Below, piece after piece: positions 1 through 64,000 of a stretch of DNA of 64,000 nt (its first letter is position 1; each line of letters starts with the position of its first letter). The notes under the pieces are model-generated. The model was given only the letters and a program-made list of their open reading frames with translations. It was not told where the DNA came from and made no database searches. Source of the stretch: Microglena sp. YARC. Lineage: Eukaryota > Chlorophyta > Chlorophyceae > Chlamydomonadales > Chlamydomonadaceae. The position numbers and the translations under genes were made by a program. The DNA lies in contig CM039462.1 in NCBI GenBank assembly GCA_022414725.1, positions 41,050,122 to 41,114,121 of the forward strand, read 5' to 3'.

Positions 1-131
1 TTTTCACTTTTATCGCTCTTGCTATTTGCAGGGTTGGAACTCGTCTCCTTGGTCTCCATCAGACCCAGTGCTCGCTGGATGAAGCTTGGCTTATCAGATG
101 GCGTGTCAGATATGCGTGTAGGGTCACAGGC
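1..131 (-). CDS. DEP gene exon, partial, polar region
   Basis: On the minus strand the acceptor is CACCACAG|GCCTGTG, phase 0, matching the phase 0 end of the 8553-8706 exon. The open frame runs to the window edge and encodes a polar segment with ISDTPSDKPSFIQRALGLME and KETSSNPANSKSDKSE. A second near-copy of the acceptor context (CACCACAGGCCTGCG) lies about 75 bp upstream in the intron. No domain is recognisable in this piece. Confidence 0.55.
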
Positions 132-3100
132 CTGTGGTGTGTGGTGGTGTGAGGTGGTGTGTGGTGGTTCGTGGTGGGAGTAGGGGCGCAGGCCTGTGGT
201 GGTTCGTGGATGGTGTGAGTCAGTTGGGCAGTCAGTTGTGAACTACGCTTGATCAGTCAGTTAGCCAGCCAATCAGTCCGTTTGTCCGTCTGTCCTTCAG
301 CCATCCAGCCACCCAACCAGCCAGTTGACAATTACAGTCAGCCAGCTAGTCAGCCAGTCAACCAGCCAGCCAGCTTATTAGCCAGCCAACCAATAAGCGA
401 ACCAGCCAGCTTATCAGCCAGCCAGCCAGCCAGCTTATCAGCCGGCCAGCCAGCTAGCCAACCAAGCAACCAGCCATATTATCAGCCAGCCAATCAGTAA
501 GCCTACCAGCCAGCCAGGTTACCAGCCAGCCAACCAATCAGCCTACCAGCCAGAAATCCAGCTAATCAGCCAGATTATCAGCCAGCCAGCCAGCCAATCA
601 ATCAGCCAGCCAGATAATCAGTCAGTCCCACTCACCTCATCATCAAAGGAGTCAGTAGATTCGCTAGTGTGAATCGAATGATCCAAAGATGTGCTGCCGT
701 TGCTACATCGGACCATCTGTTCATGTTAGTCGATGCATTAGCCAACCAGACAGCTTGTGAGCCAGCCAGCCAGCCAACCAGCCAGCCAGCCAACCAGCCA
801 GCTTATCAGCCAGCCAGCCAACCAGCCAGCTTATAAGCTAGCCAGCCAGCCAGCCAACCAGCCAGCCAGCTTATCAGCTAGCCAGCAGCCAGCCAGCCAA
901 CCAGCCAGCTTATCAGCCAGCCCAGCCAGCCAGCCATTATCAGCCGGCCAGCCAGCTAGCCAACCAAGCAACCAGCCATTATCAGCCAATATCAGCCAGC
1001 CAGCCATCAGTAAGCCTACCAGCCAGCCAGGTTACCAGCCAGCCAACCAATCAGCCTACCAGCCAGAAATCCAGCTAATCAGCCAGATTATCAGCCAGCC
1101 AGCCAGCCAATCAATCAGCCAGCCAGATAATCAGTCAGTCCCACTCACCTCATCATCAAAGGAGTCAGTAGATTCGCTAGTGTGAATCGAATGATCCAAA
1201 GATGTGCTGCCGTTGCTACATCGGGACCATCTGTTCATGTTAGTCGATGCATTAGCCAACCAGACAGCTTGTGAGCCAGCCAGCCAGCCAACCAGCCAGC
1301 CAGCCAACCAGCCAGCTTATCAGCCAGCCAGCCAACCAGCCAGCTTATAAGCTAGCCAGCCAGCCAGCCAACCAGCCAGCTTATCAGCTAGCCAGCCAGC
1401 CAGCCAACCAGCCAGCTTATCAGCCAGCCAGCCAGCCAGCTTATCAGCCGGCCAGCCAGCTAGCCAACCAAGCAACCAGCCATATTATCAGCCAGCCAAT
1501 CAGTAAGCCTACCAGCCAGCCAGGTTACCAGCCAGCCAACCAATCAGCCTACCAGCCAGAAATCCAGCTAATCAGCCAGATTATCAGCCAGCCAGCCAGC
1601 CAATCAATCAGCCAGCCAGATAATCAGTCAGTCCCACTCACCTCATCATCAAAGGAGTCAGTAGATTCGCTAGTGTGAATCGAATGATCCAAAGATGTGC
1701 TGCCGTTGCTACATCGGGACCATCTGTTCATGTTAGTCGATGCATTAGCCAACCAGACAGCTTGTGAGCCAGCCAGCCAGCCAACCAGCCAGCCAGCCAA
1801 ACCAGCCAGCTTATCAGCCAGCCAGCCAACCAGCCAGCTTATAAGCTAGCCAGCCAGCCAGCCAACCAGCCAGCTTATCAGCTAGCCAGCCAGCCAGCCA
1901 ACCAGCCAGCTTATCAGCCAGCCAGCCAGCCAGCTTATCAGCCGGCCAGCCAGCTAGCCAACCAAGCAACCAGCCATATTATCAGCCAGCCAATCAGTAA
2001 GCCTACCAGCCAGCCAGGTTACCAGCCAGCCAACCAATCAGCCTACCAGCCAGAAATCCAGCTAATCAGCCAGATTATCAGCCAGCCAGCCAGCCAATCA
2101 ATCAGCCAGCCAGATAATCAGTCAGTCCCACTCACCTCATCATCAAGAGTCAGTAGATTCGCTAGTGTGAATCGAATGATCCAAAGATGTGCTGCCGTTG
2201 CTACATCGGACCATCTGTTCATGTTAGTCGATGCATTAGCCAACCAGACAGCTTGTGAGCCAGCCAGCCAGCCAACCAGCCAGCCAGCCAACCAGCCAGC
2301 TTATCAGCCAGCCAGCCAACCAGCCAGCTTATAAGCTAGCCAGCCAGCCAGCCAACCAGCCAGCTTATCAGCTAGCCAGCCAGCCAGCCAACCAGCCAGC
2401 TTATCAGCCAGCCAGCCAGCCAGCTTATCAGCCGGCCAGCCAGCTAGCCAACCAAGCAACCAGCCATATTATCAGCCAGCCAATCAGTAAGCCTACCAGC
2501 CAGCCAGGTTACCAGCCAGCCAACCAATCAGCCTACAGCCAGAAATCCAGCTAATCAGCCAGATTATCAGCCAGCCCAGCCAGCCAATGAATCAGCCAGC
2601 CAGCCATAATCAGTTATCAGTCCCAGCTAGCAGCCTCATCATCAAAGGAGTCAGTAGATTCAGCTAGTGTGAATCGAATGATTCCAAAGATGTGCTGCCG
2701 TTGCTACATCGGGACCATCTGTTCATGTTAGTCGATGCATTAGCCAACCAGACAGCTTGTGAGCCAGCCAGCCAGCCAACCAGCCAGCCAGCCAACCAGC
2801 CAGCTTATCAGCCAGCCAGCCAACCAGCCAGCTTATAAGCTAGCCAGCCAGCCAGCCAACCAGCCAGCTTATCAGCTAGCCAGCCAGCCAGCCAACCAGC
2901 CAGCTTATCAGCCAGCCAGCCAGCCAGCTTATCAGCCGGCCAGCCAGCTAGCCAACCAAGCAACCAGCCATATTATCAGCCAGCCAATCAGTAAGCCTAC
3001 CAGCCAGCCAGGTTACCAGCCAGCCAACCAATCAGCCTACCAGCCAGAAATCCAGCTAATCAGCCAGATTATCAGCCAGCCAGCCAGCCAATCAATCAGC

Positions 3101-6100
3101 CAGCCAGATAATCAGTCAGTCCCACTCACCTCATCATCAAAGGAGTCAGTAGATTCGCTAGTGTGAATCGAATGATCCAAAGATGTGCTGCCGTTGCTAC
3201 ATCGGGACCATCTGTTCATGTTAGTCGATGCATTAGCCAACCAGACAGCTTGTGAGCCAGCCAGCCAGCCAACCAGCCAGCCAGCCAACAGCCAGCTTAT
3301 CAGCCAGCCAGCCAACCAGCCAGCTTATAAGCTAGCCAGCCAGCCAGCCAACCAGCCAGCTTATCAGCTAGCCAGCCAGCCAGCCAGCCAACCAGCCAGC
3401 TTATCAGCCAGCCAATCAGCCAGCCAGCTTATCAGCCGGCAGCAGCTAGCCAACCAAGCAACCAGCCATATTATCAGCCAGCCAATCAGTAAGCCTACCA
3501 GCCAGCCAGGTTACCAGCCAGCCAACCAATCAGCCTACCAGCCAGAAATCCAGCTAATCAGCCAGATTATCAGCCAGCCAGCCAGCCAATCAATCAGCCA
3601 GCCAGATAATCAGTCAGTCCCACTCACCTCATCATCAAAGGAGTCAGTAGATTCGCTAGTGTGAATCGAATGATCCAAAGATGTGCTGCCGTTGCTACAT
3701 CGGGACCATCTGTTCATGTTAGTCGATGCATTAGCCAACCAGACAGCTTGTGAGCCAGCCAGCCAGCCAACCAGCCAGCCAGCCAACCAGCCAGCTTATC
3801 AGCCAGCCAGCCAACCAGCCAGCTTATAAGCTAGCCAGCCAGCCAGCCAACCAGCCAGCTTATCAGCTAGCCAGCCAGCCAGCCAACCAGCCAGCTTATC
3901 AGCCAGCCAGCCAGCCAGCTTATCAGCCGGCCAGCCAGCTAGCCAACAAGCAACCAGCCATATTATCAGCCAGCCAATCAGTAAGCCTACCAGCCAGCCA
4001 GGTTACCAGCCAGCCAACCAATCAGCCTACCAGCCAGAAATCCAGCTAATCAGCCAGATTATCAGCCAGCCAGCCAGCCAATCAATCAGCCAGCCAGATA
4101 ATCAGTCAGTCCCACTCACCTCATCATCAAAGAGTCAGTAGATTCGCTAGTGTGAATCGAATGATCCAAAGATGTGCTGCCGTTGCTACATCGGGACCAT
4201 CTGTTCATGTTAGTCGATGCATTAGCCAACCAGACAGCTTGTGAGCCAGCCAGCCAGCCAACCAGCCAGCCAGCCAACCAGCCAGCTTATCAGCCAGCCA
4301 GCCAACCAGCCAGCTTATAAGCTAGCCAGCCAGCCAGCCAACCAGCCAGCTTATCAGCTAGCCAGCCAGCCAGCCAGCCAACCAGCCAGCTTATCAGCCA
4401 GCCAGCCAGCCAGCTTATCAGCGGCCAGCCAGCTAGCCAACCAAGCCAGCCACCAGCCATTATTATCAGCCAGCCAATAATCAGTAGCTACCAGCCAGCC
4501 CAGGTTACCAGCCAGCCGATGCATTAGCCAACCAGACAGCTTACAGCCAGCCAGAAGCCAGCTAGCCATCAGCCAGCCATTATCAGCCAGCCAGCCAGCC
4601 AATCAATCAGCCAGCCAGATAATCAGTCAGTCCCACTCACCTCATCATCAAAGGAGTCAGTAGATTCGCTAGTGTGAATCGAATGATCCAAAGATGTGCT
4701 GCCGTTGCTACATCGGGACCATCTGTTCATGTTAGTCGATGCATTAGCCAACCAGACAGCTTGTGAGCCAGCCAGCCAGCCAACCAGCCAGCCAGCCAAC
4801 CAGCCAGCTTATCAGCCAGCCAGCCAACCAGCCAGCTTATAAGCTAGCCAGCCAGCCAGCCAACCAGCCAGCTTATCAGCTAGCCAGCCAGCCAGCCAAC
4901 CAGCCAGCTTATCAGCCAGCCAGCCAGCCAGCTTATCAGCCGGCCAGCCAGCTAGCCAACCAAGCAACCAGCCATATTATCAGCCAGCCAATCAGTAAGC
5001 CTACCAGCCAGCCAGGTTACCAGCCAGCCAACCAATCAGCCTACCAGCCAGAATCCAGCTAATCAGCCAGATTATCAGCCAGCCAGCCAGCCAATCAATC
5101 AGCCAGCCAGATAATCAGTCAGTCCCACTCACCTCATCATCAAAGGAGTCAGTAGATTCGCTAGTGTGAATCGAATGATCCAAAGATGTGCTGCCGTTGC
5201 TACATCGGGACCATCTGTTCATGTTAGTCGATGCATTAGCCAACCAGACAGCTTGTGAGCCAGCCAGCCAGCCAACCAGCCAGCCAGCCAACCAGCCAGC
5301 TTATCAGCCAGCCAGCCAACCAGCCAGCTTATAAGCTAGGCCAGCCAGCCAGCCAACCAGCCAGCTTATCAGCTAGCCAGCCAGCCAGCCAAACCAGCCA
5401 GCTTATCAGCCAGCCAGCCAGCCAGCTTATCAGCCGGCCAGCCAGCTAGCCAACCAAGCAACCAGCCATATTATCAGCCAGCCAATCAGTAAGCCTACCA
5501 GCCAGCCAGGTTACCAGCCAGCCAACCAATCAGCCTACCAGCCAGAAATCCAGCTAATCAGCCAGATTATCAGCCAGCCAGCCAGCCAATCAATCAGCCA
5601 GCCAGATAATCAGTCAGTCCCACTCACCTCATCATCAAAGGAGTCAGTAGATTCGCTAGTGTGAATCGAATGATCCAAAGATGTGCTGCCGTTGCTACAT
5701 CGGGACCATCTGTTCATGTTAGTCGATGCATTAGCCAACCAGACAGCTTGTGAGCCAGCCAGCCAGCCAACCAGCCAGCCAGCCAACCAGCCAGCTTATC
5801 AGCCAGCCAGCCAACCAGCCAGCTTATAAGCTAGCCAGCCAGCCAGCCAACCAGCCAGCTTATCAGCTAGCCAGCCAGCCAGCCAACCCAGCCAGCTTAT
5901 CAGCCAGCCAGCCAGCCAGCTTATCAGCCGGCCAGCCAGCTAGCCAACCAAGCAACCAGCCATATTATCAGCCAGCCAATCAGTAAGCCTACCAGCCAGC
6001 CAGTTACCAGCCAGCCAACCAATCAGCCTACCAGCCAGAAATCCAGCTAATCAGCCAGATTATCAGCCAGCCAGCCAGCCAATCAATCAGCCAGCCAGAT

Positions 6101-6260
6101 ATCAGTCAGTCCCACTCACCTCATCATCAAGGAGTCAGTAGATTCGCTAGTGTGAATCGAATGATCCAAAGATGTGCTGCCGTTGCTACATCGGACCATC
6201 TGTTCATGTTAGTCGATGCATTAGCCAACCAGACAGCTTGTGAGCCAGCCAGCCAGCCAA

Positions 6261-6293
<33 letters not shown>

Positions 6294-6374
6294 TTATAAG
6301 CAGCCAGCCAGCCAGCCAACCAGCCAGCTTATCAGCTAGCCAGCCAGCCAGCCAACCAGCCAGCTTATCAGCCT

Positions 6375-6427
<53 letters not shown>

Positions 6428-6440
6428 ACCAGCCAGCTTA

Positions 6441-6473
<33 letters not shown>

Positions 6474-6476
6474 TTA

Positions 6477-6521
<45 letters not shown>

Positions 6522-6717
6522 TTATCAGCCAGCCAGCCAGCCAGCTTATAAGCCAGCCAGCCAGCCAGCCAGCCAAGCCAGCCAGCCACGCTTATCAGCC
6601 ATCAGCCAGCCAGCAGCCAGCCAGCCACCAGCCAGCCACCAGCCAGCCAGGTTATCAGCTAGCCAGCCAGCCATTATCAGCAGCCAGCCAGCCAGCCAAC
6701 CAGCCAGCTTATCAGCT

Positions 6718-6752
<35 letters not shown>

Positions 6753-6812
6753 AGCCAGCCAGCCAGCCAGCTTATCAGCCAGCCAGCCAGCCAACCAGCC
6801 AGCTTATCAGCT

Positions 6813-6847
<35 letters not shown>

Positions 6848-7266
6848 TTATCAGCTAGCCAGCCAGCCAGCCAACCAGCCAGCTTATCAGCCAGCCAGCC
6901 AGCCAGCCAGCCAACCAGCCAGCTTATCAGCTAGCCAGCCAGCCAGCCAACCAGCCAGCTTATCAGCTAGCAGCCAGCCAGCAAGCAGCCAGCCAGCTTA
7001 TCAGCTAGCCAGCCAGCCAGCCAACCAGCCAGCTTATCAGCCAGCCAGCCAACCAGCCAGCTTATCAGCTAGCCAGCCAGCCAGCCAACCAGCCAGCTTA
7101 TCAGCTAGCCAGCCAGCCAGCCAACCAGCCAGCCAACCAGCCAGCTTATCAGCTAGCCAGCCAGCCAGCCAACCAGCCAGCTTATCAGCTAGCCAGCCAG
7201 CCAGCCAACCAGCCAGCCAACCAGCCAGCTTATCAGCCAGCCAGCCAACCAGCCAGCTTATCAGCT

Positions 7267-7315
<49 letters not shown>

Positions 7316-8396
7316 ACCAGCCAGCTTATCAGCTAGCCAGCCAGCCAGCCAACCAGCCAGCTTATCAGCCAGCCAACCAGCCAGCTTATCAGCTAGCCAG
7401 CCAGCCAGCCAACCAGCCAGCTTATCAGCTAGCCAGCCAGCCAGCCAACCAGCCAGCTTATCAGCCAGCCAGCCAACCAGCCAGCTTATCAGCTAGCCAG
7501 CCAGCCAGCCAACCAGCCAGCTTATCACCTAGCCAGCCAGCCAGCCAACCAGCCAGCCAACCAGCCAGCTTATCAGCTAGCCAGCCAGCCAGCCAACCAG
7601 CCAGCTTATCAGCCTAGCCAGCCAGCCAGCCAACCAGCCAGCCAGCCACCAGCCAGCTTATCAGCCAGCCAGCCAGCCAGCCAACCAGCCAGCTTATCAG
7701 CTAGCCAGCCAGCCAGCCAGCCAGCCAACCAGCCAGCTTATCAGCCAGCCAGCCAGCCAACCAGCCAGCTTATCAGCTAGACAGCCAGCCAGCCAGATTA
7801 TCAGCCAGCCAGCCAGACAACCAATCAGCCAGCCAGCCAGCCAGATTATCAGCCAGCCAACCATAAAGCCAACCAGCCAGCCATCCAACTTATCAGCCAG
7901 CCGACCATTAAGCCAACCAGCCAGCCAGCCAGCTTATCAGACAGTCCCACTCACCTCATCATCTAAGGAGCCAGCAGACTCCCTAGTGTGAACCGGTTGA
8001 TCCAAAGCTGTGCTGCTGTTGCTACATCGGGAACATCTGTTCATGTTAGTTGATGCAATAAGCCAACCAGACAGCTTATGAGCCAGCCAGCCAGCCAACC
8101 AATCAGCCTACCAGCCAGCCAGATTATCAGCCAGCCAGCCAGCCAATCAAGCAGCCAGCCAGATTATCAGCCAGCCAACCAATTAGCCAGCCAGCTTACC
8201 AACCAACCAATCAGCAAGCCAGTCCCACTCACCTCATCATCAAAGGATTCGGTAGATTCCCTAACGTGAATCGGTTGATCCCAAGATGTGCTACCGTCGC
8301 TACATTAGAAAATCAGTTCATGTCAGTCAATCCAATCAGCCAACCATTAAACCAACCAGCCAGCCGGATAATCAGCCAGCCAGCCAACCATTCAGC

Positions 8397-8427
<31 letters not shown>

Positions 8428-12228: not shown

Positions 12229-12291
12229 CCTGCTTCGAACCTTCGAAATGTAGTCTTGTCAGACCAACCATTTCCCCCACGATCAAGCATC

Positions 12292-12610
12292 TGTGGTGTA
12301 TGAGAAAAACGTGTTGTCCGACTGGGGAATCTCATGGTTATATCCGTATGATACACCACAACTCACCCCCCTTTCGAAGGTCCGACGCCCACCTCCTGTC
12401 TGAGATGTGCACGCCCGGCCGAGCCAGCCCCCTCCTAGCGAAGGTTTCCATCATGCGCCAGCCCGGGATCGAACCCGCGTGGTACTGGTGAAGGCCCCAA
12501 CTTCCGTCCAGTCGATCCACTCGACCAAGTTCAAAACCAAATGTGGTGTATGAGGAAAACGTGTTGTCCGATTGGGGAATCTCATGGTTATATCCGTATG
12601 ATACACCACA
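12292..12610. mobile_element. Pair of 69-bp inverted-terminus repeats around a tRNA-like sequence
   Basis: Two nearly identical 69-bp copies (12292-12360 and 12542-12610) each begin TGTGGTGTATGAG and end GTATGATACACCACA, a 10-bp terminal inverted repeat. Between them lies 181 bp containing a minus-strand tRNA-like sequence. The termini echo those of the gypsy LTR (TGTGGT...ACCACA). Immediately left of 12292 is GCATC, which is also the five bases right of the last gypsy LTR (22531-22535). It may be a miniature LTR (TRIM-like) element; the family is unknown. Confidence 0.45.
12455..12532 (-). ncRNA. tRNA-like sequence with pol III A and B boxes
   Basis: On the minus strand an A box TGGTCGAGTGG (12517-12527) and a B box GGTTCGATCC (12466-12475) are spaced as in a tRNA. 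The T-arm would be CGGGTTCGATCCCG. A full cloverleaf with a clear anticodon is not obvious, so a tRNA-derived SINE head is more likely than a working tRNA gene. Confidence 0.4.
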
Positions 12611-12613
12611 AAT

Positions 12614-12908
12614 TGTGGTGGATAACGATCCTCCCACTGAGTTGCCACGCGGTGGTGACGACTTTCCGACAGATGACGAACGACTTCTGTAGGCAGTTGA
12701 AACCGAGCGAATTGACCTACTGATCAGTGTCTGATCAGCTACTCGGGAATACCTCAAACGAGGGTTCCATTAGGGCCTAGACGCGCTGGAAGCGGGAAGG
12801 GAGTCTTAAGCCGTGCTTCTGACTCTTAGGGCCGTCTAAACTCCTGAGATCATTTATTAGGCTTCCAGTTACAAGACACTCCGTGTTACAAGGTATTCAT
12901 ATACCACA
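12614..12908 (+). repeat. Gypsy LTR 1
   Basis: The LTR runs from TGTGGTGGATAACG to TATACCACA, 295 bp. It differs from the inner LTRs at several sites: GCGGGAAGGG instead of GCGGGTTGGG, ACCTCAAACG and CATTTATTAGG. The AAGGG variant is shared only with LTR 5. Confidence 0.9.
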
Positions 12909-12997
12909 ATTGGTTTCGGAGCCTGGTCGCGCTTTCAAACCGCGCCACTCGCTTTACTCCCCACCCCGACGTCCCCTCGAGCCCACCATCACCGAGT

Positions 12998-15097: not shown

Positions 15098-15313
15098 GCA
15101 GTTGAAACCGAGCGAATTGACCTACTGATCAGTGTCTGATCAGCTACTCGGGAATACCTAAAACGAGGGTTCCATTAGGGCCTAGACGCGCTGGAAGCGG
15201 GTTGGGAGTCTTAAGCCGTGCTTCTGACTCTTAGGGCCGTCTAAACTCCTGAGATCATTTCTTAGGCTTCCAGTTACAAGACACTCCGTGTTACAAGGTA
15301 TTCATATACCACA
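15019..15313 (+). repeat. Gypsy LTR 2
   Basis: 295 bp, bounded by TGTGGT and ACCACA, with the GCGGGTTGGG variant. It carries the last 25 codons of the upstream unit's reading frame and its stop. Confidence 0.9.
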
Positions 15314-15403
15314 ATTGGTTTCGGAGCCTGGTCGCGCTTTCAAACCGCGCCACTCGCTTTACTCCCCACCCCCGACGTCCCCTCGAGCCCACCATCACCG
15401 AGT

Positions 15404-17502: not shown

Positions 17503-17718
17503 GCAGTTGAAACCGAGCGAATTGACCTACTGATCAGTGTCTGATCAGCTACTCGGGAATACCTAAAACGAGGGTTCCATTAGGGCCTAGACGCGCTGGA
17601 AGCGGGTTGGGAGTCTTAAGCCGTGCTTCTGACTCTTAGGGCCGTCTAAACTCCTGAGATCATTTCTTAGGCTTCCAGTTACAAGACACTCCGTGTTACA
17701 AGGTATTCATATACCACA
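17424..17718 (+). repeat. Gypsy LTR 3
   Basis: 295 bp, TGTGGT to ACCACA, with the GCGGGTTGGG variant as in LTRs 2 and 4. Confidence 0.9.
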
Positions 17719-17808
17719 ATTGGTTTCGGAGCCTGGTCGCGCTTTCAAACCGCGCCACTCGCTTTACTCCCCACCCCCGACGTCCCCTCGAGCCCACCAT
17801 CACCGAGT

Positions 17809-43483: not shown

Positions 43484-43514
<31 letters not shown>

Positions 43515-46500: not shown

Positions 46501-46706
46501 ATGGTTAGCTTGCTGTGATGCAGGTGACTTGGATGATGCAGTGCTTGATCGCATGGATGAGGCCCTTGACTTTGGCCTGCCCGGACCTAATGAGCGAAAA
46601 CAGATCTTGACCTTGTACTTAGACAAGTACATCGCTAAAGCTGGTGCGGCATGTGATGAGCTATGTTTACAGAAGAAAAATGATTTTTGACGTGTGTATG
46701 TGGAGT

Positions 46707-46739
<33 letters not shown>

Positions 46740-54026: not shown

Positions 54027-54137
54027 ATGGGCCTCCCTACTGAGAAAAAGACCCTGGCCTTCAGGGGACAATTCGTGCATACCCCCGCGTACGGCGTTCT
54101 CGACCTGCTTCTTGACAAAATCATGATCGTCAAGGAT
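54027..54137 (+). CDS. GDA: Guanine deaminase exon 1
   Basis: ATG at 54027 is the first after an in-frame TGA at 54015. There are 37 codons; donor AAGGAT|GTAGGT, phase 0. It encodes TLAFRGQFVHTPAYGVL. Confidence 0.85.
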
Positions 54138-57100
54138 GTAGGTGTACCGAGCCAATTATGCTTTTGTGCTTCTATTTCGCCCCCGTGCACCCCCGTGCTC
54201 ATGTGAACGAACGTCACCTCCTAAATTGGCCGACACAGGGTAAGATCGTCAAAATGGCCCCCGGTGCCGAGGAGGAAGCTGTGCTCAAGACTTTCGATCT
54301 GGATGCAAGCTGTGTGAGGTGCGCAAACTCGGCACTCAGTGCATGCGCTTGTCGCCGATCTGTATGCCCCCGTGAGACGTCAGGAATTCGTCACACCTAA
54401 TCTAACACCTTTCTCCCAATCGCGTGCGCAGGCGCCTGGAAGAGGGCCAGTTCTTCCTACCAGGACTGATCGACACCCACGTCCATGCTCCCCAGTATAA
54501 GGTGAATGGGGGGGTCCTTGAAAACAGCCAAGGGGTTGAACAGTCGATTTTTTAGGTGGGGGCAGGGTGGCAGGTTCAAGGTATATGTTGGATATTGTAT
54601 CTCTGACTGGGATGTGGTACACAAGTGGGGCTGGGAGCAGTTGGGCTGGCCAGGTAAGGGGGGCAGGCAGTTGCCAATGTCATAGCTTTTCTTTCAGCTA
54701 CAAGCAGCAGCTTCTAGGCAGCTCCCCTGACTGGCTATTCCGCCAAACCTACCGCACCCTAGTGCACCTTGAAGCTGACACAATCAGCTGTCCAAAACTG
54801 CTGAAACATTTGGGTGTAGCGCAGTGGCTGGCTCAGGGAGCTGCTTAGAAGCTGCTTCATAAGCCGAAGAGAAAAGCATTGGGCACAGTAGGCTGGAAAT
54901 CACAGGGCAGTGTTTTTCTTTTCAGCTAATAGCAGCAGCTTCTAGCCAGCTCCCCTGACTGCCTATTGAGCCAAAGCTAATTCAACCTAGAGTGTTTGGA
55001 AGCTGACAGAATCCGCTGTCCAGAAATGTCAAAATGTTGGGGCTTAGCCCAGTGGCTGGCTCAGGGAGCTGCCTGGAAGCTACTGCTCGTAGCTGAAAAG
55101 AAAAACTATGTCATAGGGAAGGCAATATCATGAAGGCCAGATGGGCGTGATCCAGGGTACTTCCATTGACCAAATTGGCCAGCGCTTTAGCGCACATGAA
55201 AAAAAGAACTGCACTTAGTAGTGTAAAAAGTGCAAAAAATGCTTGCTGCGCCCACAGGGGGTTGCAAAAAACTGTGCAAAATGCGCAGTGGGGCTCAAAA
55301 AGGCAGCGCGCCAGCGCGCAAAAGCACGCGCTTGAAAGTACCCAGGCGTGATCATGGCTGATCTGATGCATGGGTTTGCAGTTAAATTATATGCATAGCA
55401 CAAAATTCGGGCCCCCCATCGTTTAAGATTTGTTGGGGTTCAGGTCACTCGTGCTTTTTTTCCTTTTCTGTTTTAAGGTTGGGTAAGTTCCGTTAGTCTA
55501 TTTGGCTACGCCTGGACTGTACAAATACAGACACATGGGTGATCTGGACGTCAGGCTCTCACACAGATATGGCCGTCACATCATCCCATGCGCTCAAGCC
55601 TTACTGTTTGGGCATGATCTGTCAAGCTATACCATGCCGCTCTACTCGATTTTTATTGTAAAAGATGACTGATGACAGAGGACAAAAGTAACAGATGACA
55701 GATGACAGAGGACAAAAGTAACAGATGACAGATGACAGAGGACAAAAGTAACAGATGACAGATGACAGAGGACAAAAGTAACAGATGACAGATGACAGAG
55801 GACAAAAGTAACAGATGACAGTTGACAGAGGACATAAGTAACAGATAACAGATTACAAAAGCAAAGATGACAAAAGCAACAGATGATAGATGAAAAAAAA
55901 CAGATGACAAAAGCAACAGATGACAAAAGCAACAGATGACATATGAAAAGAGCAACAGATGACAAAAGCAACAGATGATAAATGATAGATGACAAAAGCA
56001 AAGATAACAAAAGCAACAGATGATAGATGACAGATGACAAAAGCAACAGATGACAAAAGCAACAGATGATAACTGATAGATGACAAAAGCAACAGATGAC
56101 AAAAGCAAAGTTGACAAAAGCGGAGATGACAAAAGCAAAGGTGGCAAAAGCAAAGATGACAAAAGCACAGATGACATGTGACAATTGAGTTTGGCGGCAT
56201 GGTATAGCTTGACATGATCCATACATTGAAATCAGTACAGGAATTGTGGAAGACCATGTGTGCAGGCGGTTGCAAGGGTCTCTGTCACAGAGATGCCTAC
56301 ATGTTGTAAGGGTCTCTGTCAAGGGTCTCTGTCACAGAGATGCCTACATGTTGTAAGGGCCTCTTACCCTCAGAGACCCTTACAACATATAGCATCTCTG
56401 TGTCTTGTGTCCGAGTGGATTGTGACCAGTGACCATTAGCTTAGCGGATGTGACTTTATGGAGCGATATTGTAGTGCCGAGTGTAGCTCGTAATACACCT
56501 CTGGCCTGGGCTTTCTTCCAGTGATTTGTTTGTCAAATCTGAAAGTGGGGGTTTTCTAGCTTTATGGTTCTAGGCCTCCACCAGGGTCAGCTTTCTAGTG
56601 TTTTTTGTAGCCTTTTGTAGCCTTTGTAGCCTTTTGTAGCTTTTGGGGGCCATTCGGGGCAGAATAAAAAACTGTATTTCTTGTTTAATAGAGCGATAAT
56701 TTCTCCAAAACGGGGTAAAAACTAGCGATTGCTATATAAAGCGGGGAAAAAAGCCCTACTTTCTTCATATTATGTGATTGCTGTTATCCACACCCAAGCA
56801 GCCAGTTCAGCAGGGAACAAGCTTTATTTTCAGCTACGAGCTACAGCTTCTAGGCAGCTCCCCTGACTTGCTATTCAGCCGAACCTAGCGTTAATTAGTG
56901 CACCTTGAAGCTTATATAACCAGCTGTCCAAAACTGGTTTGGTGTAGCACAGTGGCTGGCTCAGGGAATTGCCTAGAAGCGGTTGCTCGTAGCTGAAAAG
57001 AAAAGCCCTGTCAAGGAACTTACTGGAACCTCCACTGAGCAAGTTTCTTTTGGGGCTGCGCATGGCAGCTTCCAGCCAGCTCCATGAGCCAGCCACTGGT

Positions 57101-60100
57101 TCAAGACCAAATCTTTCAGCTGCGTTGGAATACCTGTCATAACAGCTTTCAGACGCACTAGCTAGCTTCAGGTTTGGCCAAAGAACAGGGAAAGGGAGCT
57201 GCCTAGAAGCTGCTACACGTAGCTCAAAAAAGAAACAGTGACCTCCACTGAGTGAGTGTGCAGCATACAAGGACCAGAACTTTTTTTCCGCGACCAGTAA
57301 CGATCGCTACCTGGGACCCTGTTTTGGCCAAACCTCCCGCTATCATGAGACTCAAATCTCTGCCCCGCCCCGCAAACCCCCCAGACCAGCCCTTGGGGCC
57401 GCCTACCCAAATCGCTACCGGGAGCTCAACCTTAAAAGACACCGAATCCCTGATTGCTACCAGAAGACCCCCTTTCTGAAACGGGGAAAAAGCTCTGGCA
57501 ATGACCTCGGGGCCTCATGACCCCTACCACGTGTGATTTATTGTCAGAGTTTTTTTTCCGTTTCAGAGGGGGGGTCTTCTGCTAGCGATCAGGGATTTGG
57601 TCTCTTTCAAGGTTGGGCTCCCGGTAGCGATTTGGTTAGGCGGCCCCTAGAACCGAACCACATGTGCCTTATTTCACTAAAAGCAATTCAGCAGACGTTT
57701 TGGAATTGAACATTTCAGAACGGGTTGTAGCTCTTAGCTCGTATCTCAGATTTGTACTGAATCCCGAGAATTCCGAGAATTGTTGTACTAATGTCAAAAA
57801 AATTGCCTGAAAAAGTCGAGGTACAAAGTGCGACCTACGACTGTCGTTTTCAAATCATCCACTGAATTGCTTGAAGTTACTTAAGTATGGACCCGCATAT
57901 CATATGAGTCACATGTGGTTGGGGTCTTGAGGACCCAAGGTCCCTGTCAGAGTTTTTTTCCGTTTCAGAGAGGGGGTCAGAAAGGAAATTGCCATAAAAC
58001 ATGCAGTCGTATGCAGTTCATTGCAGCCATAATGTACAAGGACAAAACGTTTAAGAACGCCAGCCCACTGTTTCTTTTGGGAGCTACGCGTCCTTTGCTG
58101 TACTGTACCCAATACATAAATAAATAGTATGCCTTACTACGAGGCGTGAGGTTAAGGAGGCCAGCCCGTTTGCTTTCACTGGGGCCAACCACCAAGTACT
58201 GTATCCAATCAAGATATCGAAATATATCTGTGTCAATGTCTATTTGTCTGTCTATCTTTCTATCCTTGTACACCGGCACTTGCACAGACATGCTCCTCAT
58301 GAAATGGCTCCAGAAGTACACCTTCCTTGTAGAGAGGTCTTACAAGGACGCTGAAGCCGCCTAGTACTGATAGCCTCGAGTTCATCCCTATCTGCCTATC
58401 TATATATCTTTCTATCTCTGTCTTTCTCAAAAATATTCCTGATTCCCTGCCGTTCACCGGCACCGGTACCAACGTGCCCCTCATAGAATGGCTCCAGAAA
58501 TGCACCTTTCCCGAAGAGAGGTCTTATGAGGATGCCGAAGCCGCCAAGTACCGATATAACCTGTTGGTGGCCTCAAGAGCATCCCTACATATCTGTGTTT
58601 CTATGTCTGTCTTTCTAAAATATATTTCCTGATTCCCCGCAGTTCACCGGCACCGGTACCGACGTGCCCCTCATGGAATGGCTCCAGAAGTACACCTTCC
58701 CCGTAGAGAGGTCTTATGAGGATGCTGAAGCCGCCAAGTACCGCTACAACCTCTTGGTGAAGCGCTTTCTCTCCAACGGCACCACCACTGCCACCTACTT
58801 TGGCTCCCTGCACCTGCAGCCCAACCTCATCCTGGTTGATACAATTGAGGCGCTGGGACAGAGGGCTGTGGTCGGCAAGGTAGGTCTGTGATAGGTAGAT
58901 ATGCAGACAGAGATACGAACAAGCAGGCATACAGAACGGTAGCTGGAGTCAGGCTGACAGGCCGAAATAATAAAGAACCATCACTTCCACCCACTTAGGC
59001 TCCCTGCTCCTGTAGCCCAACCTTATCCTGGTTGATGCAATTGAGGCGCTGTGACAGAGGGCTGTGGTCGGCAAGGTAGGTCTGTTATGATCAATTAAAA
59101 GAAAAATTAAAAGAAAATATGGAAAAGACCCGAGGGGGGGGCAGAAATAAAATCCTCAGACCCCATGCCCTTGTTTCCTACATAGGGCTGAGTTTACCAC
59201 CCACCCACCCACCCACCCACCCACCCACGGCTCTGGAACCCACTTGGAGGCCATTATCTCCCCCCACAATAATCATTAGGGGGTCAAAGCAGGGTGCATT
59301 TTGTATAGCTTGAAAAGGCCTATCTACTGGTGCTGCTCCCATAACCATGCGCCATATGTGGAGCAAGAAATAGCAAATCAGACAATACAATTAGTTTGTA
59401 GGCACACAGAAGCGCCATCATCACCATCAATGTTACATGAGAGGTAGTGTCTGGGGTTTATGGCCCCCAGGCCCCTAATATGCCCTGGGCTATCAAAGTA
59501 ACACGCTTGGCCTATCTCAATCTTCTCAGCCACTATGAATCACATGCTCAGACTATTACAACTAATCACTTAGGCGACCAACCTTTTTATTTATCCTAGA
59601 GGATTAGCACCAGTGGTCCATGCCATGCATGATGGGGTCATCATCATCCTCATCCTCATCTACATCCTCATCACCCTCCTCTACCTCTCCTCCTTCTCCT
59701 CCCTCTTCCTCTTCCTCTCCCTCTCTTCGTCCCTCTCCCTCTTCTTCTTTCTTAACCACCCTACTCCAGAACAATGCCGCAGCCGGCAATAGATCTTGCG
59801 CCTCTTGCACATTTTGATCACGCCTGTTACGGACGTGTGCTCCTTGCCAATGACTCAGACACACTCAGGGTGAATGTCTCAATGTCGTCCGTGCTGAGTT
59901 GCTGGGTTGGGTTGACAGACTGCATGTGATGGAGGAAGTGGTAGCTCCACACGTACTTCCGGGTCTTGCCGGGATCAGAAAGGCAGATAGGGCATGCAAC
60001 AGGCCTATTGGTACGAGGGTTGGCTGTAGATCCCTTTTCAACAGAAGCGTAGGATATCTTATAAATTTGAGGGCATGAAGACGTCACCACTATTACGTGT

Positions 60101-63100
60101 GAGGAGGATACCTTCCTCAAGTCCACATTGCACACACCAGAGCTCCTGTCTTGCTCCCTCGCGCCTTTCTTTTTGCGGTTGCTTCTCTGCATGCCTTCAA
60201 GTTTTGTGCCTCGCGACATTCGCAGGGTGCCTAACAATTCCCGTCCGCACTCGTCACATTCGATGCTTAAAGCGAAAAGGTCCATCAAACAACATGGAAT
60301 GATCCCAGATAGAAAGAAGAGATGGTAAGAAAGAAGCACCAGTAGGTTCGTTGAGGAATCTGTATTTCCTCGTTTTTGAAGAAGTACAGGTACTTTTTTA
60401 TTTTATACTTCGTACTGCTGGGTTGGGTTGTGTGTGTGGGAGGGGAGCCCTAATAGCACCAATGGAGACTGGTGCTATTAGTAGAGGAACACCCCAGTTC
60501 CACTCCCATGTCATTCTGTGGGCTATGAGGAAATATCTTGAAAAGTAGCTATTTTTTTCTTAAATTCCAGTTATTTTTTCCTCACCACCCACCCACCCCT
60601 CAAACTTTGGAGGCTACTGGGCCAACTCAACTTAACTTAACATAACTTTCTACCTACTTGGCAAAAGAAATTAAGACCAGATTCTTCATCCTCTCAACAA
60701 GCTCTACATATTTGGGGCATGGGGTCAGACTTTTTATTTTTGCCCCCCCCCCTCGAAAGGACCACCCAATTTTGTTCTTATTGTCTCTTACCATGCCCTG
60801 ATCAATTATTTCAAATCTTATTTGTAGATGAAGGCGTTGTGATAGGTAGACAGATGCACAAACAAGCAGGCAGGCAGGCAGAACAGTAGCTGGAGTCAGG
60901 CCAACAGGCGGAAATAATAAAGAACCACCACTTCCACCTACTTTGGCTCCCTGCACCTGCAGCCCAACCTCATCCTGGTTGATAAAGTTGAGGCGCTGGG
61001 ACAGAGGGCTGTGGTCAGCAAGATAGGACTGTGACAGGCAGACAGGCAGACTGCTTCAGAACGCAGCTGGTAGAGAGGCAGATAGATAGAGACAGGACGG
61101 AGTCAATCAACCCTAAACCCTAAACCCTATCAGGTTAACATGTGCTGTGAGTCTCCCGACATGTGCAACCCTAAACCCTGTGAACCCTAAACCTTATAAA
61201 CCCTAAACCTATCAGGTGAACATGGACCGTGAGTCTCCCGACATGCCTCAACCTTAAACCCTATAAACCCTAAACCCTATCAGGTGAACATGGACCGTTA
61301 GTCTCCTGACATGTATAAACCCTAAACCCTATAAACCCTAAACCCTATCAGGTGAACATGGACTGTCAATCCCCGGACATGTGTAAACCTTAAACCCTGC
61401 AAACCCTAAACCTTAACCCCTTTAAACCCTAAACCCTATCAGGTGAACATGGACCGTGAGTCTCCCGACATGTACAAACCCTAAACCCTAAACCCTATCA
61501 GGTGAACATGGACCGTGTGTCTCCCGACATGCCTCAACCTTACACCCTATCAGGTGAACATGGACCGTTAGTCTCCTGACATGTATAAACCCTATAAACC
61601 CTAAAACCTATCAGGAGAACACGGACCGTGAGTATCCCGACAAAAAGACAAATATGAACCCTTAATCCTAACTCCTATCAAGTGAGCATGGACCGTGAGT
61701 CTTTTGACATGTGTAAACCCTAAACCCTATCAAGTGAACATGGACTGGAGTCTCCCGACATGTGTCACTCCTAAACCCTGTGAACCCTAAACCTTAACCC
61801 CTATAAACCCTAAACCCTATCAGGTGAACATGGACCGTGAGTCTCCTGACATGTACCAGGAGACCACTGAGCAAGGTCTTGCGGAGGCTGAGGAGTTTGT
61901 GAAGTATACTCTGGCTAAGAAGAGCACTCGCATCTACCCATGCATCACCCCCCGCTTCATCCCCACCTGCACCATTGAGATCATGAAAGGTGCGTGCAAC
62001 AAGCTCAGATTAAACTCTGAACATCTGTTACAGAGCACCAATTGCACTGGTCATAAGGCTATATCTACCCATGCATCATCCCCCGCTTCATCTCCACCCG
62101 CACCATGGAGATGACGAGAGGTGCATGCGACAAATTCAAATTCAACTCTAGTGTCTGAATATCTGTTACAGTGTTCAAATAGCACCCCCGGCCATACGGC
62201 TCTATCGACTCCTGTACCATCCCTTGCTCCACCCCCACCCGCACCATGGAGATGATGAGTGGTGCGACAACGTAAACAAAAAGGGATTATATACCACCTT
62301 TGTTTGCTGACTTCCCCAGGTGTGGCGTACGGGAGGGTCCCCTCAACACCACGCCCCTCCAGGCGTTATATTTATTTTTTATTATTATATATATTTTTTT
62401 ACCGCCTTATTAACCAGTTGAGTTGGCGCCTTCATAACCCGTGTTCAGGCCTGGTCGGTATTGCCAAGAAGTACAACGTCCACACCCAGAGTCACATCTC
62501 AACGTGCTGTACCCATAATTCATCAGTGCCCCATTTTGCACTTGCTCGCCCTTTTGACCACATCCCCCACCCGTTGTCAGGCCTGGCCCGGCATCGTCAA
62601 GAAGTACAACGTCCACATCCAGAGTCTCATCTCCAAGCGCTGTACCCTTTCTTTATCAATGCCCCATTTTTGACTTTCCCGCCCCTTAGCTAACTAACCC
62701 CTTCGACTGCATCCCCCACATTTTGTCAGGCCTGGCCGGTATTGCCAAGAAGTACAACGTTCACATCCAGAGTCACATCTCCGAGTGCTGCGGAGAGGTC
62801 AAGTGCGTAAGGCAACAGCACCCTGAGTACAAGACCGATGCGCTTGTCTTTGACGATGTGGGTCTGCTCACGGACAAGGCCCTCATGGCCCATGGTACCT
62901 TGCTGACTGACGATGATATCAAGCTGCTGGCTGCGAGGGGAACCTCCGTCGCCCACTGCCCTTTGTCCAACTTCTTCCTCGGAGATGCTTGCTTCAGGTA
63001 AGCTGCCCTTGCCTTGGGCAGAGACTGTTGGATTTTAGGAATAGCTGAACCTCCCTCTCCCACTGCCTCTGTCCAACTTCGTCCTCGGAGACGCTTGCTT

Positions 63101-64000
63101 GAAGTGAGACGCAGTTGGCTTGGCTTGGCTTGGGCAGAGAGTGTTGGATGTGTGGAACGACTGAACCTCCGTCTCCCACTGCCCTCTGTCTAACTTTTTC
63201 CTTGGAGACGCTTGCTTCAGGTAGGCTGCCCTTGCCCTGGGCTAGAGATTGTTAGATTGAAGGAATAGCCAAACCTCCGTCTCCCACTGCCCTCTGTCCA
63301 ACTTCTTCCTTGGAGATGCTTGCTTCAGGTGAGACGCAGTTGGCTTGGCTTGGTTTGGCTTGGGCAGAGATTGTTAGATGTGTGGAACGACTGAGCCACT
63401 TTGTCCCACTGCCCTCTGTCTTAACTTCTAACTCAGAGATGCTTGCTTCAGGTAAGCTGCCCTTGCCTTGGGTAGAGATTGTTAGATTTAAGGAAAGGGC
63501 CGACCTGTGTGTCCTACTGCTGTCTGTCTTACTTCTTCCTCGGAGACGCTTGCTTCAGGTGAGACGCAGTTGGCTTGGCTTGGCTTGGCTTGGCTTGGCT
63601 TGGCTTGGCTTGGGCAGAGAGTGTTAGATGTGTGGAACGACTGAACCTCCGTCTCCCACTGCCCTCTGTCTAACTTTTTCCTCGCAGATGCTTGCTTCAG
63701 GTAGGCTGCCCGTGCCCTGGGCTAGAGATTGTTAGATTGAAGGAATAGCCGAACGTCCGTCTCCCACTGCCCTCTGTCCAACTTCTTCCTAGGAAACGCT
63801 TGCTTCAGGCGAGACGCAGTTGGCTTTGTTTGGTTTGGGCAGAGATTGTTAGATGTGTGGAACGACTGAACAGCTTGGACCCACTGCCCTCTGTCTTACT
63901 TCTTCCTCGGAGTTGCTTGCTTCAGGTAAGCTGCCCTTGGCTTGGGCCGAGATTGTTTGATTTTAGGAATAGCTGAACCTCCGTCTCCCACTGCCCTCGG
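54027..64000 (+). CDS. GDA: Guanine deaminase gene, first six exons, 3' end outside window
   Basis: Exons 54027-54137, 54239-54318, 54432-54501, 58643-58879, 61824-61989 and 62730-62997 join in phase. The enzyme hydrolyses guanine to xanthine and ammonia in cytosolic purine salvage. Family marks are the N-terminal AFRGQFVHTP strand, FFLPGLIDTHVHAPQY with the metal-binding His-x-His, TDVPLMEWLQKYTFPVE, RFLSNGTTTATYF, CITPRFIPTC, HIQSHISE with metal-site His, LMAHGTLL and AHCPLSN. About 270 codons are present of roughly 450 in the family. The missing part should hold the remaining catalytic Asp (TDVAGG-type) and the C-terminus. Introns carry exon-edge arrays, MITEs and a minus-strand zinc-finger-like frame. 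Confidence 0.92.
54239..54318 (+). CDS. GDA: Guanine deaminase exon 2
   Basis: Acceptor GACACAG|GGT; donor GTGAG|GTGCGC, phase 2. It encodes GKIVKMAPGAEEEAVLK and TFDLDASCV. An earlier GTGAGG donor would break the frame into exon 3. Confidence 0.85.
54432..54501 (+). CDS. GDA: Guanine deaminase exon 3, metal-binding HxH
   Basis: Acceptor GTGCGCAG|GCG, donor TATAAG|GTGAAT. It encodes RLEEGQFFLPGLIDTHVHAP and QYK; the THVHA histidines bind the catalytic zinc in this amidohydrolase family. Confidence 0.92.
54688..54876. mobile_element. MITE-like element, CAGCTTCTAGGCAGCTCC family
   Basis: Ends are CTTTCAGCTACAAGCAGCAG and GAAGCTGCTTCATAAGCCGA-GAGAAAAG, about 35 bp imperfectly inverted. The internal sequence (ATTCCGCCAAACC, GCACCTTGAAGCTGACACAA) is shared with the copies at 54915 and 56830. 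Confidence 0.7.
54915..55108. mobile_element. MITE-like element, same family, second copy
   Basis: CTTTTCAGCTAATAGCAGCA at the left and CTACTGCTCGTAGCTGAAAAG-type sequence at the right form the inverted ends. It lies within 40 bp of the previous copy in the same orientation. Confidence 0.7.
55153..55344. mobile_element. MITE with exact 9-bp duplication, Mutator-like
   Basis: The 192-bp element has ends CAGGGTACTT and AAGTACCCA. It is flanked by GGCGTGATC on both sides (55144-55152, 55345-55353). The interior resembles the reverse complement of 47838-48030 (ACCAAATTGGCCAGCGCTTT, GCGCCC). Confidence 0.78.
55665..56180. repeat. ACAGATGACAAAAGCA minisatellite
   Basis: The first part is GACAAAAGTAACAGATGACA plus GATGACAGAG, ~41-bp units; it then becomes ACAGATGACAAAAGCA units. 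The long Cys/His/Leu/Ser frames on the minus strand are not genes. Confidence 0.92.
56270..56400. repeat. GGGTCTCTGTCACAGAGATG direct and inverted repeats
   Basis: Two direct copies of GTCACAGAGATGCCTACATG with TTGTAAGGG, and one inverted CAGAGACCCTTACAACAT, can form a hairpin in guanine deaminase intron 3. Confidence 0.75.
56830..57005. mobile_element. MITE-like element, CAGCTTCTAGGCAGCTCC family
   Basis: TTTTCAGCTACGAGCTACAG and GTTGCTCGTAGCTGAAAAG form the ends. The interior matches the copies at 54688 and 54915. Confidence 0.7.
57048..57230. mobile_element. MITE-like element, same family, diverged
   Basis: The left end GGCAGCTTCCAGCCAGCTCC and right end GGGAGCTGCCTAGAAGCTGC are retained. 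The interior resembles the copy at 10285-10485 (GCACTAGCTAGCTTCAGGTT). Confidence 0.6.
57405..57645. repeat. Long inverted repeat (~95-bp arms), second MITE-like family
   Basis: The left arm (AAATCGCTACCGGGAGCTCA ... CTTTCTGAAACGGGGAAAAA) pairs with the right arm at about 57545-57640 (TTTTTTCCGTTTCAGAGGGG ... GGGCTCCCGGTAGCGATTT). Single-arm relatives lie at 10495-10580 and 57940-57980. Confidence 0.8.
58250..58590 (+). repeat. Two copies of guanine deaminase exon 4 5' edge
   Basis: Copies start near 58270 and 58452. Each repeats about 100-120 exon bases (CTCCAGAAGTACACCTTCC, GAGAGGTCTTA). Both have lost the acceptor AG (TTGTACACC, CTGCCGTTC). Confidence 0.92.
58643..58879 (+). CDS. GDA: Guanine deaminase exon 4
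   Basis: Acceptor TCCCCGCAG|TTC, donor GGCAAG|GTAGGT; 79 codons, phase 0. It encodes TDVPLMEWLQKYTFPVERSY, RFLSNGTTTATYFGS and DTIEALGQRAVVGK. Confidence 0.94.
58985..59095 (+). repeat. Copy of guanine deaminase exon 4 3' edge with donor
   Basis: GGCTCCCTGCTCCTGTAGCC to GGCAAG|GTAGGTCTG. It has an in-frame TAG and a TGA, but the donor is intact. Another copy at 60940-61030 has its donor mutated (AAG|ATAGG). Confidence 0.92.
59195..59228. repeat. (CACC)n microsatellite
   Basis: About eight CACC units in intron 4. Confidence 0.9.
59604..60339 (-). pseudogene. Zinc-finger-like ORF in guanine deaminase intron 4
   Basis: A 170-codon minus-strand frame (60339-59827) contains CDECGRELLG and a C2H2-like CPICLSDPGKTRKYVWSYHF followed by LHHM. 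A second frame (59864-59604) supplies a strongly acidic tail (DEDVDEDEDDDD). A shift between the two would join them, and the layout (Cys/His motif then acidic tail) suggests a degraded cellular or transposon gene. I do not recognise the family. Confidence 0.4.
61105..61823 (+). repeat. Ten copies of guanine deaminase exon 5 acceptor with CCCTAAA telomere-like motif
   Basis: Units of 50-90 bp contain one to three CCCTAAA (or CCCTATAAA) motifs, then TATCAG|GTGAACATGGACCGTGAGTC and GACATGT. Edges lie near 61135, 61214, 61283, 61352, 61442, 61502, 61554, 61614, 61680 and 61733; the real one is 61824. Each holds about 30 exon bases. Most AGs are intact; two read CAAGTG. Confidence 0.92.
61824..61989 (+). 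CDS. GDA: Guanine deaminase exon 5
   Basis: Acceptor CCCTATCAG|GTG, donor ATGAAAG|GTGCGT, ends phase 1. It encodes VNMDRESPDMYQETTEQGL and CITPRFIPTCTIEIMK. Confidence 0.93.
62060..62275 (+). repeat. Two copies of guanine deaminase exon 5 3' edge
   Basis: CATCCCCCGCTTCATCTCCA ... ATGACGAGAG|GTGCATG at 62120 and GAGATGATGAGTG|GTGCGAC at 62263. Donor context is roughly kept. Confidence 0.85.
62445..62690 (+). repeat. Two copies of guanine deaminase exon 6 acceptor and 5' edge
   Basis: GTTCAG|GCCTGGTCGGTATTGCC (62449) and TTGTCAG|GCCTGGCCCGGCATCG (62580) precede the real edge at 62730. Each keeps ~65 exon bases and an intact AG. Confidence 0.93.
62730..62997 (+). CDS. GDA: Guanine deaminase exon 6
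   Basis: Acceptor TTTGTCAG|GCC, donor TTCAG|GTAAGC, ends phase 2. It encodes GIAKKYNVHIQSHISECCGE, a DDVGLLTDKALMAHG segment and GTSVAHCPLSNFFLGDACF. Confidence 0.94.
63010..64000 (+). repeat. At least eight copies of guanine deaminase exon 6 3' edge, running off window
   Basis: Units of about 115 bp repeat TCCCACTGCCCTCTGTCCAA, CTTCTTCCTCGGAGATGCTT and GCTTCAG|GTRAG-type donors near 63106, 63220, 63330, 63452, 63560, 63702, 63810 and 63927. Two spacer types (TTGGCTTGGCTTGGGCAGAG and CTGCCCTTGCCTTGGGCAGA) tend to alternate. The array is cut by the window edge. Confidence 0.92.

Follow-up and report, generated by a model that had tools for sequence, protein, structure and literature searches.

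In a 64-kb window of the chlorophyte Microglena sp. YARC (contig CM039462.1, positions 41,050,122 to 41,114,121 of the forward strand; "the window" below is this whole stretch), introns of all three host genes carry diverged tandem copies of the edges of their own exons. These genes are ATAD3 and guanine deaminase on the forward strand, and a DEP-domain gene on the reverse strand. Edge arrays at about half of the junctions in three adjacent genes indicate a mutational route by which introns grow. In our view, introns probably lengthen here by local tandem duplication, leaving half-exon decoys as neutral by-products. Intron growth by such duplication is little studied, as far as the literature searched shows.

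Each exon edge (up to 80 exon and 40 intron bases) was compared with its own intron by local alignment. The score threshold was 40, a value approached by at most one of 60 Markov-shuffled introns per edge. Copies aligned over at least 8 bases on either side of the junction were called junction-spanning, and 20-base self-overlaps from the edge search were excluded from the copy counts. The acceptor of DEP exon 1 is provisional, no upstream exon being modelled, and 700 upstream bases were searched instead. Junction-spanning tandem copies were found in the own intron at 17 of the 39 exon edges, with 73 copies in total (Table 1). BLAST and by-eye curation add two edges whose copies fail the strict spanning rule, the ATAD3 exon 3 donor and exon 7 acceptor (in the latter, the aligned part covers only exon +21 to +67, and the junction span was judged by eye). 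This brings the total to 19 edges, in 14 of the 21 exons. When every aligned copy of at least 40 bases was counted, partial ones included, there were 84 copies at 20 edges. Downstream arrays repeat the exon end with the donor, and upstream arrays the acceptor with the exon start. The copies lie head-to-tail with a regular period, often contiguous, and periods range from 40 to ~494 bases by Tandem Repeats Finder (TRF) and self-BLAST.

A first-pass annotation of this DNA had described diverged edge copies in the introns adjoining most exons of the three genes, with the same polarity and with periods of 40-500 bp, and all of this is borne out. Its estimate of roughly 90 copies agrees with the 84 obtained when partial copies are included, but not with the number of primary events, which is far smaller (see below). 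The span it proposed, the entire window, was too wide, as it takes in intergenic and transposon DNA with almost no arrays of such kind. The 20 uncounted edges include all four edges of two short introns (101 and 113 bp). At some uncounted edges partial copies were seen (acceptors of DEP exons 1 and 3 and of ATAD3 exon 11), and the uncounted acceptors of exons 2 and 8 and donor of exon 9 have arrays abutting them. An extra copy of the deaminase exon 4 donor lies at 60838-61051, past ~1.7 kb with an unrelated open reading frame (ORF).

Table 1. Gene models, exon-edge arrays and small repeated elements of the window. Copy numbers refer to copies in the adjoining intron.
Feature	Position	Strand	Details
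ATAD3 gene	31934-49751	+	12 exons, in-frame 640 aa, introns GT-AG
ATAD3 exons 1-6	31934-32182, 34536-34646, 36016-36264, 38226-38394, 40898-41049, 42800-42877	+	
ATAD3 exons 7-12	43588-43711, 44197-44324, 45846-46041, 46524-46643, 47668-47829, 49567-49751	+	
Guanine deaminase gene	54027-64000	+	first 6 exons before window end
Deaminase exons	54027-54137, 54239-54318, 54432-54501, 58643-58879, 61824-61989, 62730-62997	+	
DEP-domain gene	1-10881	-	three exons modelled: 10829-10881, 10037-10222, 8553-8706
ATAD3 exon 2 end + donor	34593-35298	+	period ~104, 6 copies, 2 junction-spanning
ATAD3 exon 3 end + donor	36113-36445	+	one copy, period 177, aligned only to intron +6
ATAD3 acceptor + exon 4 start	37665-38305	+	period 124, 4 spanning copies
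ATAD3 exon 4 end + donor	38327-39567	+	period 106, then ~163; 8 spanning copies
ATAD3 acceptor + exon 5 start	40031-40943	+	periods 79 and 167, 5 spanning copies
ATAD3 exon 5 end + donor	41005-41291	+	period ~103, 2 spanning copies
ATAD3 acceptor + exon 6 start	42586-42847	+	one spanning copy, period 167
ATAD3 acceptor + exon 7 start, older copy	43360-43680	+	period 194
ATAD3 exon 8 end + donor	44229-44695	+	2 spanning copies
ATAD3 acceptor + exon 10 start	46256-46619	+	period 154, one spanning copy
Deaminase acceptor + exon 4 start	58268-58759	+	period 184, one spanning and one partial copy
Deaminase exon 4 end + donor	58781-59088	+	period 196
Deaminase acceptor + exon 5 start	61106-61856	+	CCCTAAA-rich spacers, 10 spanning copies
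Deaminase exon 5 end + donor	61932-62266	+	period 131, one spanning and one partial copy
Deaminase acceptor + exon 6 start	62437-62790	+	period 132, one spanning and one partial copy
Deaminase exon 6 end + donor	62940-63998	+	period ~107, 8 spanning copies, reaches window end
DEP exon 1 end + donor	10579-10856	-	period 40, 6.9 units (TRF), 3 spanning alignments
DEP exon 2 end + donor	8895-10092	-	period 136-154, 8 spanning copies
DEP exon 3 end + donor	263-8600	-	~494-base units, (AGCC)n filler, 14 spanning copies
Intron-only minisatellite, no exon edge (example)	41364-42585	+	35/70/105-base units
MITE-like elements	54684-54877, 54914-55104, 56820-57006, 57043-57229, 48073-48269, 10302-10483		~190 bases; self-BLAST pairs

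With the script used for the controls, the forward search of the own intron gave 72 copies at 17 of 39 edges. Copies were found at none of the 39 edges in the reverse complement of the own intron, at none of 36 edges in the intron flanking the exon's opposite end, and in none of 257 comparisons of an edge with the gene's remaining introns. When 543 intronic queries of 60 bases were searched separately against shuffled introns, no score reached 36. Each set of copies thus has one orientation and one locus and runs head-to-tail, as a tandem-repeat array does. Insertion of fragments in random orientation does not fit copies that are all on the same strand and in the own intron. Introner elements are intron-building repeats that recur in unrelated introns; unlike them, the present copies were found only in the intron beside their source, with no similar sequence in the same-gene comparisons above. 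Between genes, the self-BLAST list showed matches resembling transposable elements (TEs) only, no separate between-gene test having been run.

Local duplication in these introns extends well beyond the exon edges. Tiles of 40 bases were taken from introns of at least 450 bases, the 8.5 kb DEP intron being excluded from the tile tests. A local copy was found for 268 of 595 intron tiles, and for 263 of 517 when TE-like stretches were left out, compared with one of 196 tiles of non-TE intergenic DNA. With TEs kept, the intergenic counts were 3 of 307 tiles, and 10 of 610 for 60-base tiles. Pseudo-junctions had copies in 8 of 1624 cases in intergenic DNA, in 355 of 1919 in intron outside aligned edge copies, and in 846 of 1145 inside them, the figure for real edges being 17 of 39. 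About 10 intronic tandem arrays, listed by hand, contain no exon edge. The edge arrays are part of a wider intronic pattern of local tandem copies. The contrast between introns and intergenic DNA, seen in one window, may stem from transcription-linked duplication or from faster intergenic turnover. Two points weaken it: the intergenic sample is small (196 tiles from five stretches, 29 low-complexity tiles having been dropped, as were 56 in introns of at least 450 bases), and a 77-base direct repeat near the Ty3-like units described below (12285-12361 and 12535-12611, 94% identical) falls partly outside it, the stretch being cut at 12500. The ends of this repeat, which adjoins the Ty3-like units, look inverted (TGTGGTGTAT...ATACACCACA).

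An artefact of sequencing or assembly is scarcely credible as the source of the arrays. Long near-identical units, such as those of the DEP 494-base array, may be miscounted, but the copies are 0.71-1.0 identical to the real edges with scattered changes, the reading frames are intact in all three gene models with each modelled intron GT-AG, and the intergenic DNA of the same window is almost free of copies.

In a second explanation, breakage, re-replication or splicing-linked RNA-templated repair makes junctions hot spots of duplication. We judge it unlikely, although evidence is found on both sides. The 60 intronic bases beside an edge were copied at 13 of 29 edges (45%; ten further edges are outside this count, five being of low complexity, four belonging to short introns and one lacking a modelled intron), compared with 515 of 1085 other intronic 60-base tiles (47%). 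These other tiles split into 316 of 372 inside the edge-array spans and 199 of 713 outside them (28%). Edges are thus not special relative to all intron DNA, and special relative to tiles outside edge arrays (45% vs 28%). On raw counts, the share of copied tiles stays level at 0.37-0.59 from the junction out to ~800 bases, and is 0.27 beyond. Copies nearest the exon are not consistently young, no age gradient away from the exon being apparent in 8 arrays (mean rho -0.13, mixed signs).

Several results go the other way and weigh against untargeted duplication. When each multi-copy array was counted once, 41% of near-edge tiles were copied, against 15% of deeper ones, and in a bootstrap over introns 0 of 2000 replicates of this gap were at or below zero. 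The comparison proposed in the first-pass annotation, of exon edges with intronic segments of equal length, therefore gives no edge excess on raw tiles and the opposite once arrays are collapsed. Placement tests were made on hand-curated arrays (33 pooled, 32 within-intron), TE-like and non-tandem pairs being dropped, and arrays were placed at random on introns after removing extra copies. In the pooled test, 19 of the 33 were edge arrays, with 5.9-7.1 expected (P below 0.001). Because their exon half is constrained, edge copies are possibly detectable for twice as long; with detectability doubled, 9.7-11.3 were expected (P 0.0004-0.003, also given as 0.0001-0.003). Within introns (n = 27-32), the expectation against the same 19 was 10.0-11.4 (P 0.00005-0.001), or 13.2-15.0 with doubled detectability (P 0.006-0.07). 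Collapsed lengths are crude in this test for introns cut by the window ends; without the two window-end arrays the count is 17 of 25 against 9.4 (P 0.0003), or against 12.6 with doubled detectability (P 0.03). The edge excess after these tests is 1.3- to 3.4-fold, varying with assumptions. The junction also lies near the middle of the unit (exon share 0.51, standard deviation 0.16, 19 hand-measured units), but its position within units does not differ from uniform (Kolmogorov-Smirnov P = 0.14).

A forward simulation without targeting, in which introns underwent random duplications and exon-altering events were discarded, comes close to what is observed. For introns growing from 450-700 to 1350 bases, 48-65% of edges acquired copies (0.8-1.6 per edge), and exon-derived sequence came to make up 7-13% of the intron; the long introns of the window have 17 of 35 edges copied (49%), 2.1 copies per edge and 13% exon-derived sequence. 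From starting lengths of 60-300 bases, the proportion of edges copied overshoots (0.76-0.92). Two reservations count against the simulation: the observed number of copies per edge is above its best-fitting range, and it ignores decay and deletion while taking its unit lengths from the observed arrays. Junction targeting is possible, yet unnecessary, and as a necessary cause it is rejected, since raw tiles are copied equally and an untargeted simulation gives similar edge frequencies. Of the two processes that had been put forward at the outset, intron growth is retained for all three genes, and targeting of splice junctions is not needed.

Duplication without targeting, the reading we prefer, would work as follows. 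Recurrent head-to-tail duplication of stretches of ~40-200 bases (one near 500) would lengthen introns, starting anywhere in the intron or extending into the flanking exon. Duplications inside an exon or over a whole exon would change the protein and be lost. Those over a single edge would survive, the copy contiguous with the exon still yielding the right mRNA, and would leave half exons behind, an exon end with its donor downstream and an acceptor with an exon start upstream. The polarity of the copies would thus arise because duplications altering exons are lost. Copies would then drift, and re-expand within the intron. In the window itself, the copies lie in tandem close to their source, on its strand and within the adjoining intron only, and they change like non-coding DNA; duplication seems tied to gene bodies, perhaps via transcription.

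The divergence of the copies bears on their history. Identity to the real edge is higher on the exon side (91.2%, 1961/2150) than on the intron side (85.5%, 1593/1864), as expected if the real exon alone is constrained. In 12 of the 15 arrays with at least two copies, the real edge is on average nearer to the copies than the copies are to one another. At DEP exon 3, 11 of 14 copies have an identical partner, yet their identity to the real edge is only 0.78-0.83. Many of the copies therefore arose by later re-expansion, which puts the number of primary events at about 19, not 90. Less easily accommodated are the DEP exon 1 array, which is young (96-100% like the real edge), and the fact that introns with some young edge arrays are already several hundred bases long.

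Private changes, tallied in arrays with at least two spanning copies, were equally frequent at codon positions 1 to 3 (39/1189, 37/1186 and 35/1174, i.e. 0.033, 0.031 and 0.030) and on the intron side (65/2135, 0.030). Copied exon pieces change like non-coding DNA, and coding constraint on the copies is rejected. Two earlier tallies had differed between codon positions (a first mismatch tally of 0.098/0.056/0.133, and a per-column count of 66/343, 51/348 and 78/343, P 0.04). Changes of the real exon enter into both, and shared changes into the first as well, so that private changes alone isolate the copies.

Another way to account for the arrays would be that selection retains the copies because they serve as spare splice sites, as splicing enhancers or as alternative exons. 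As had been noted in the first pass, many copies keep GT or AG: the splice dinucleotide is intact in 66 of 73. Scored with a small weight matrix built without the parent site, 46 of 73 decoys equal or exceed that site (33 of 50 donors and 13 of 23 acceptors). Retention is nevertheless not above that of linked controls, 58.6 being expected from other dinucleotides (P 0.12, the arrays being linked), and 0.85 standing against 0.80 when computed by edge (P 0.28), which gives no clear selection for or against decoy sites. The equality of private changes just described also argues against it, as does the outcome of using the 65 placeable canonical decoys, a stop codon for 64 and a frameshift for one. 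These stops show only that use would be harmful, since long retained stretches usually hold a stop anyway. One class of units leans towards selection. In the ATAD3 exon 4 donor array, a motif scan found four units (38837, 39001, 39145 and 39472) that also carry an acceptor-like site, which together with the copied exon end and donor makes frame-keeping 42-base mini-exons (38837-39513), and 3 of the 4 scanned are open and in frame. All considered, we find selection for the copies quite improbable. The compound units at 38837-39513 could represent a route from edge duplication to new exons.

If the decoys are neutral by-products of duplication, splicing must still find the real sites. For the reading frame to be kept, each intron must be spliced from its 5'-most donor to its 3'-most acceptor. 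Arrays that span the junction occur at both ends of four introns, namely introns 4 and 5 of ATAD3 and introns 4 and 5 of the deaminase; a fifth, ATAD3 intron 3, makes a weaker case. Pairing by nearness across such an intron would choose the innermost, wrong sites, whereas pairing across the exon would be blind to the copies, because each copy is half an exon. The geometry of the arrays and the strength of the decoys therefore suggest exon definition in introns with arrays; the many competing sites, and exon definition as a sound deduction from them, had both been anticipated in the first-pass annotation. Some observations temper this. Mean decoy scores are below those of real sites (donors 6.25 vs 8.19, acceptors 5.29 vs 6.38), and site strength may help in the choice of the real site; the mini-exons, carrying both sites, should be visible to exon definition. 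In Volvox and Chlamydomonas, intron definition is thought probable, introns being short, according to the available part of one report (PMC4378016).

The arrays amount to a built-in test of splice-site choice, as in the four introns decoyed at both ends the outermost pair alone gives the protein. They would also mislead gene predictors and RNA aligners. A broader proposal, which we advance tentatively and hold to be rather doubtful, is that duplication in transcribed gene bodies is genome-wide and the main engine of intron growth, full-strength decoys being neutral and tolerable only under exon definition. If true, this genome would be a natural experiment separating exon definition from intron definition.

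Among the matches listed from the open-licence literature, none was recognised as describing exon-edge arrays, though this does not prove that no such report exists. The nearest case, as far as the accessible parts of the paper go, is the potato RdRp gene (PMC4974935), where a new intron arose from a tandem duplication that crossed an intron-exon boundary, and where an 83-base duplication inside the first intron is also mentioned. The likeness lies in the duplicated intron end and exon start, with acceptor and polypyrimidine tract. That was a single event, with a new spliced intron and a changed mRNA, whereas here ~19 edges of three adjacent genes are concerned, often with multiple copies, and the mRNA appears to be unchanged. 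In Drosophila, some new introns seem to derive from tandem duplication of coding sequence, in the portion of the source available (PMC2891723). In the Rogers model too, tandem duplication supplies the splice sites. The model requires an exonic AGGT, whose duplication provides both GT and AG, and places an intron where there was none. In the present genes, by contrast, introns that were already there become longer: every array repeats a single side of an existing exon, its copies lie within introns, and the frame runs through the real exons. Whole-exon duplication and mutually exclusive exons fit poorly as well, given the absence of copies from wrong-side introns and of coding constraint, the four compound mini-exons being a partial exception.

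A further comparison is offered by a survey of 31 species (PMC3887541), in whose available passages tandem repeats are densest in introns in Chlamydomonas and Volvox, and rise towards intron ends in all 31 species, in these two above all. The intron enrichment resembles the present case; the survey covers units of 1-50 bases only, and exon-edge copies are unmentioned in those passages. The arrays would seem to belong to the same mutational class as the known cases, what is new being that many edges of adjacent genes are affected and that exon edges are carried along.

Some arrays have a distinctive composition. In the DEP array at 263-8600, many of the ~494-base units are nearly identical, and the opposite strand holds long SQPA-repeat ORFs. 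In the array at 61106-61856, CCCTAAA heptamers interleave with the acceptor copies, and we take this tract before deaminase exon 5 to resemble a plant-type telomere repeat. Telomere-type repeats as a general feature of the arrays were rejected, 16 of the window's 20 CCCTAAA/TTTAGGG heptamers being in this single array.

Identification of the host genes rests on Pfam matches to ATAD3_N (3.6e-76) and AAA (7.5e-24) for ATAD3, Amidohydro_1 (1.7e-34) for the deaminase, and the DEP domain (7.8e-24) for the third gene, which presumably extends past its modelled exons in both directions. Deaminase residues 11-306 align with the human guanine deaminase structure 2uz9; the alignment is broken by two gaps of a single residue each, the first where exons 1 and 2 meet and the second within exon 5. 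Neither Rfam nor tRNA scans gave a match in the window. Against viral contigs, whole ATAD3, the Ty3 integrase piece and the motif of the MITE-like elements (miniature inverted-repeat transposable elements) had no match; ATAD3 exon 9 had two loci at 39-41% identity, which were not used.

As for other elements, the inverted ends of the MITE-like elements (CTTTTCAGCT...AGCTGAAAAG, by eye) contain TTTCAG, which is acceptor-like. Inside deaminase intron 4, an ORF of 191 codons with paired cysteines lies on the reverse strand (59827-60402) and has a weak Pfam match, below the cut-off, to the RIG-I C-terminal domain (5.4e-4, 20.6 vs 25.6 bits). Four head-to-tail units of ~2.4 kb with Ty3-like ORFs occupy 12848-22314, the last with two ORFs that comprise integrase zinc-binding and core, Tf2-1-like SH3 and chromo domains, and a reverse-transcriptase fragment is also found between host genes. 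Finally, 299-base direct repeats (25485-25783 and 29217-29515, 99.7% identical) frame ~3.4 kb, and 25485-29515 is probably a recent long terminal repeat element.

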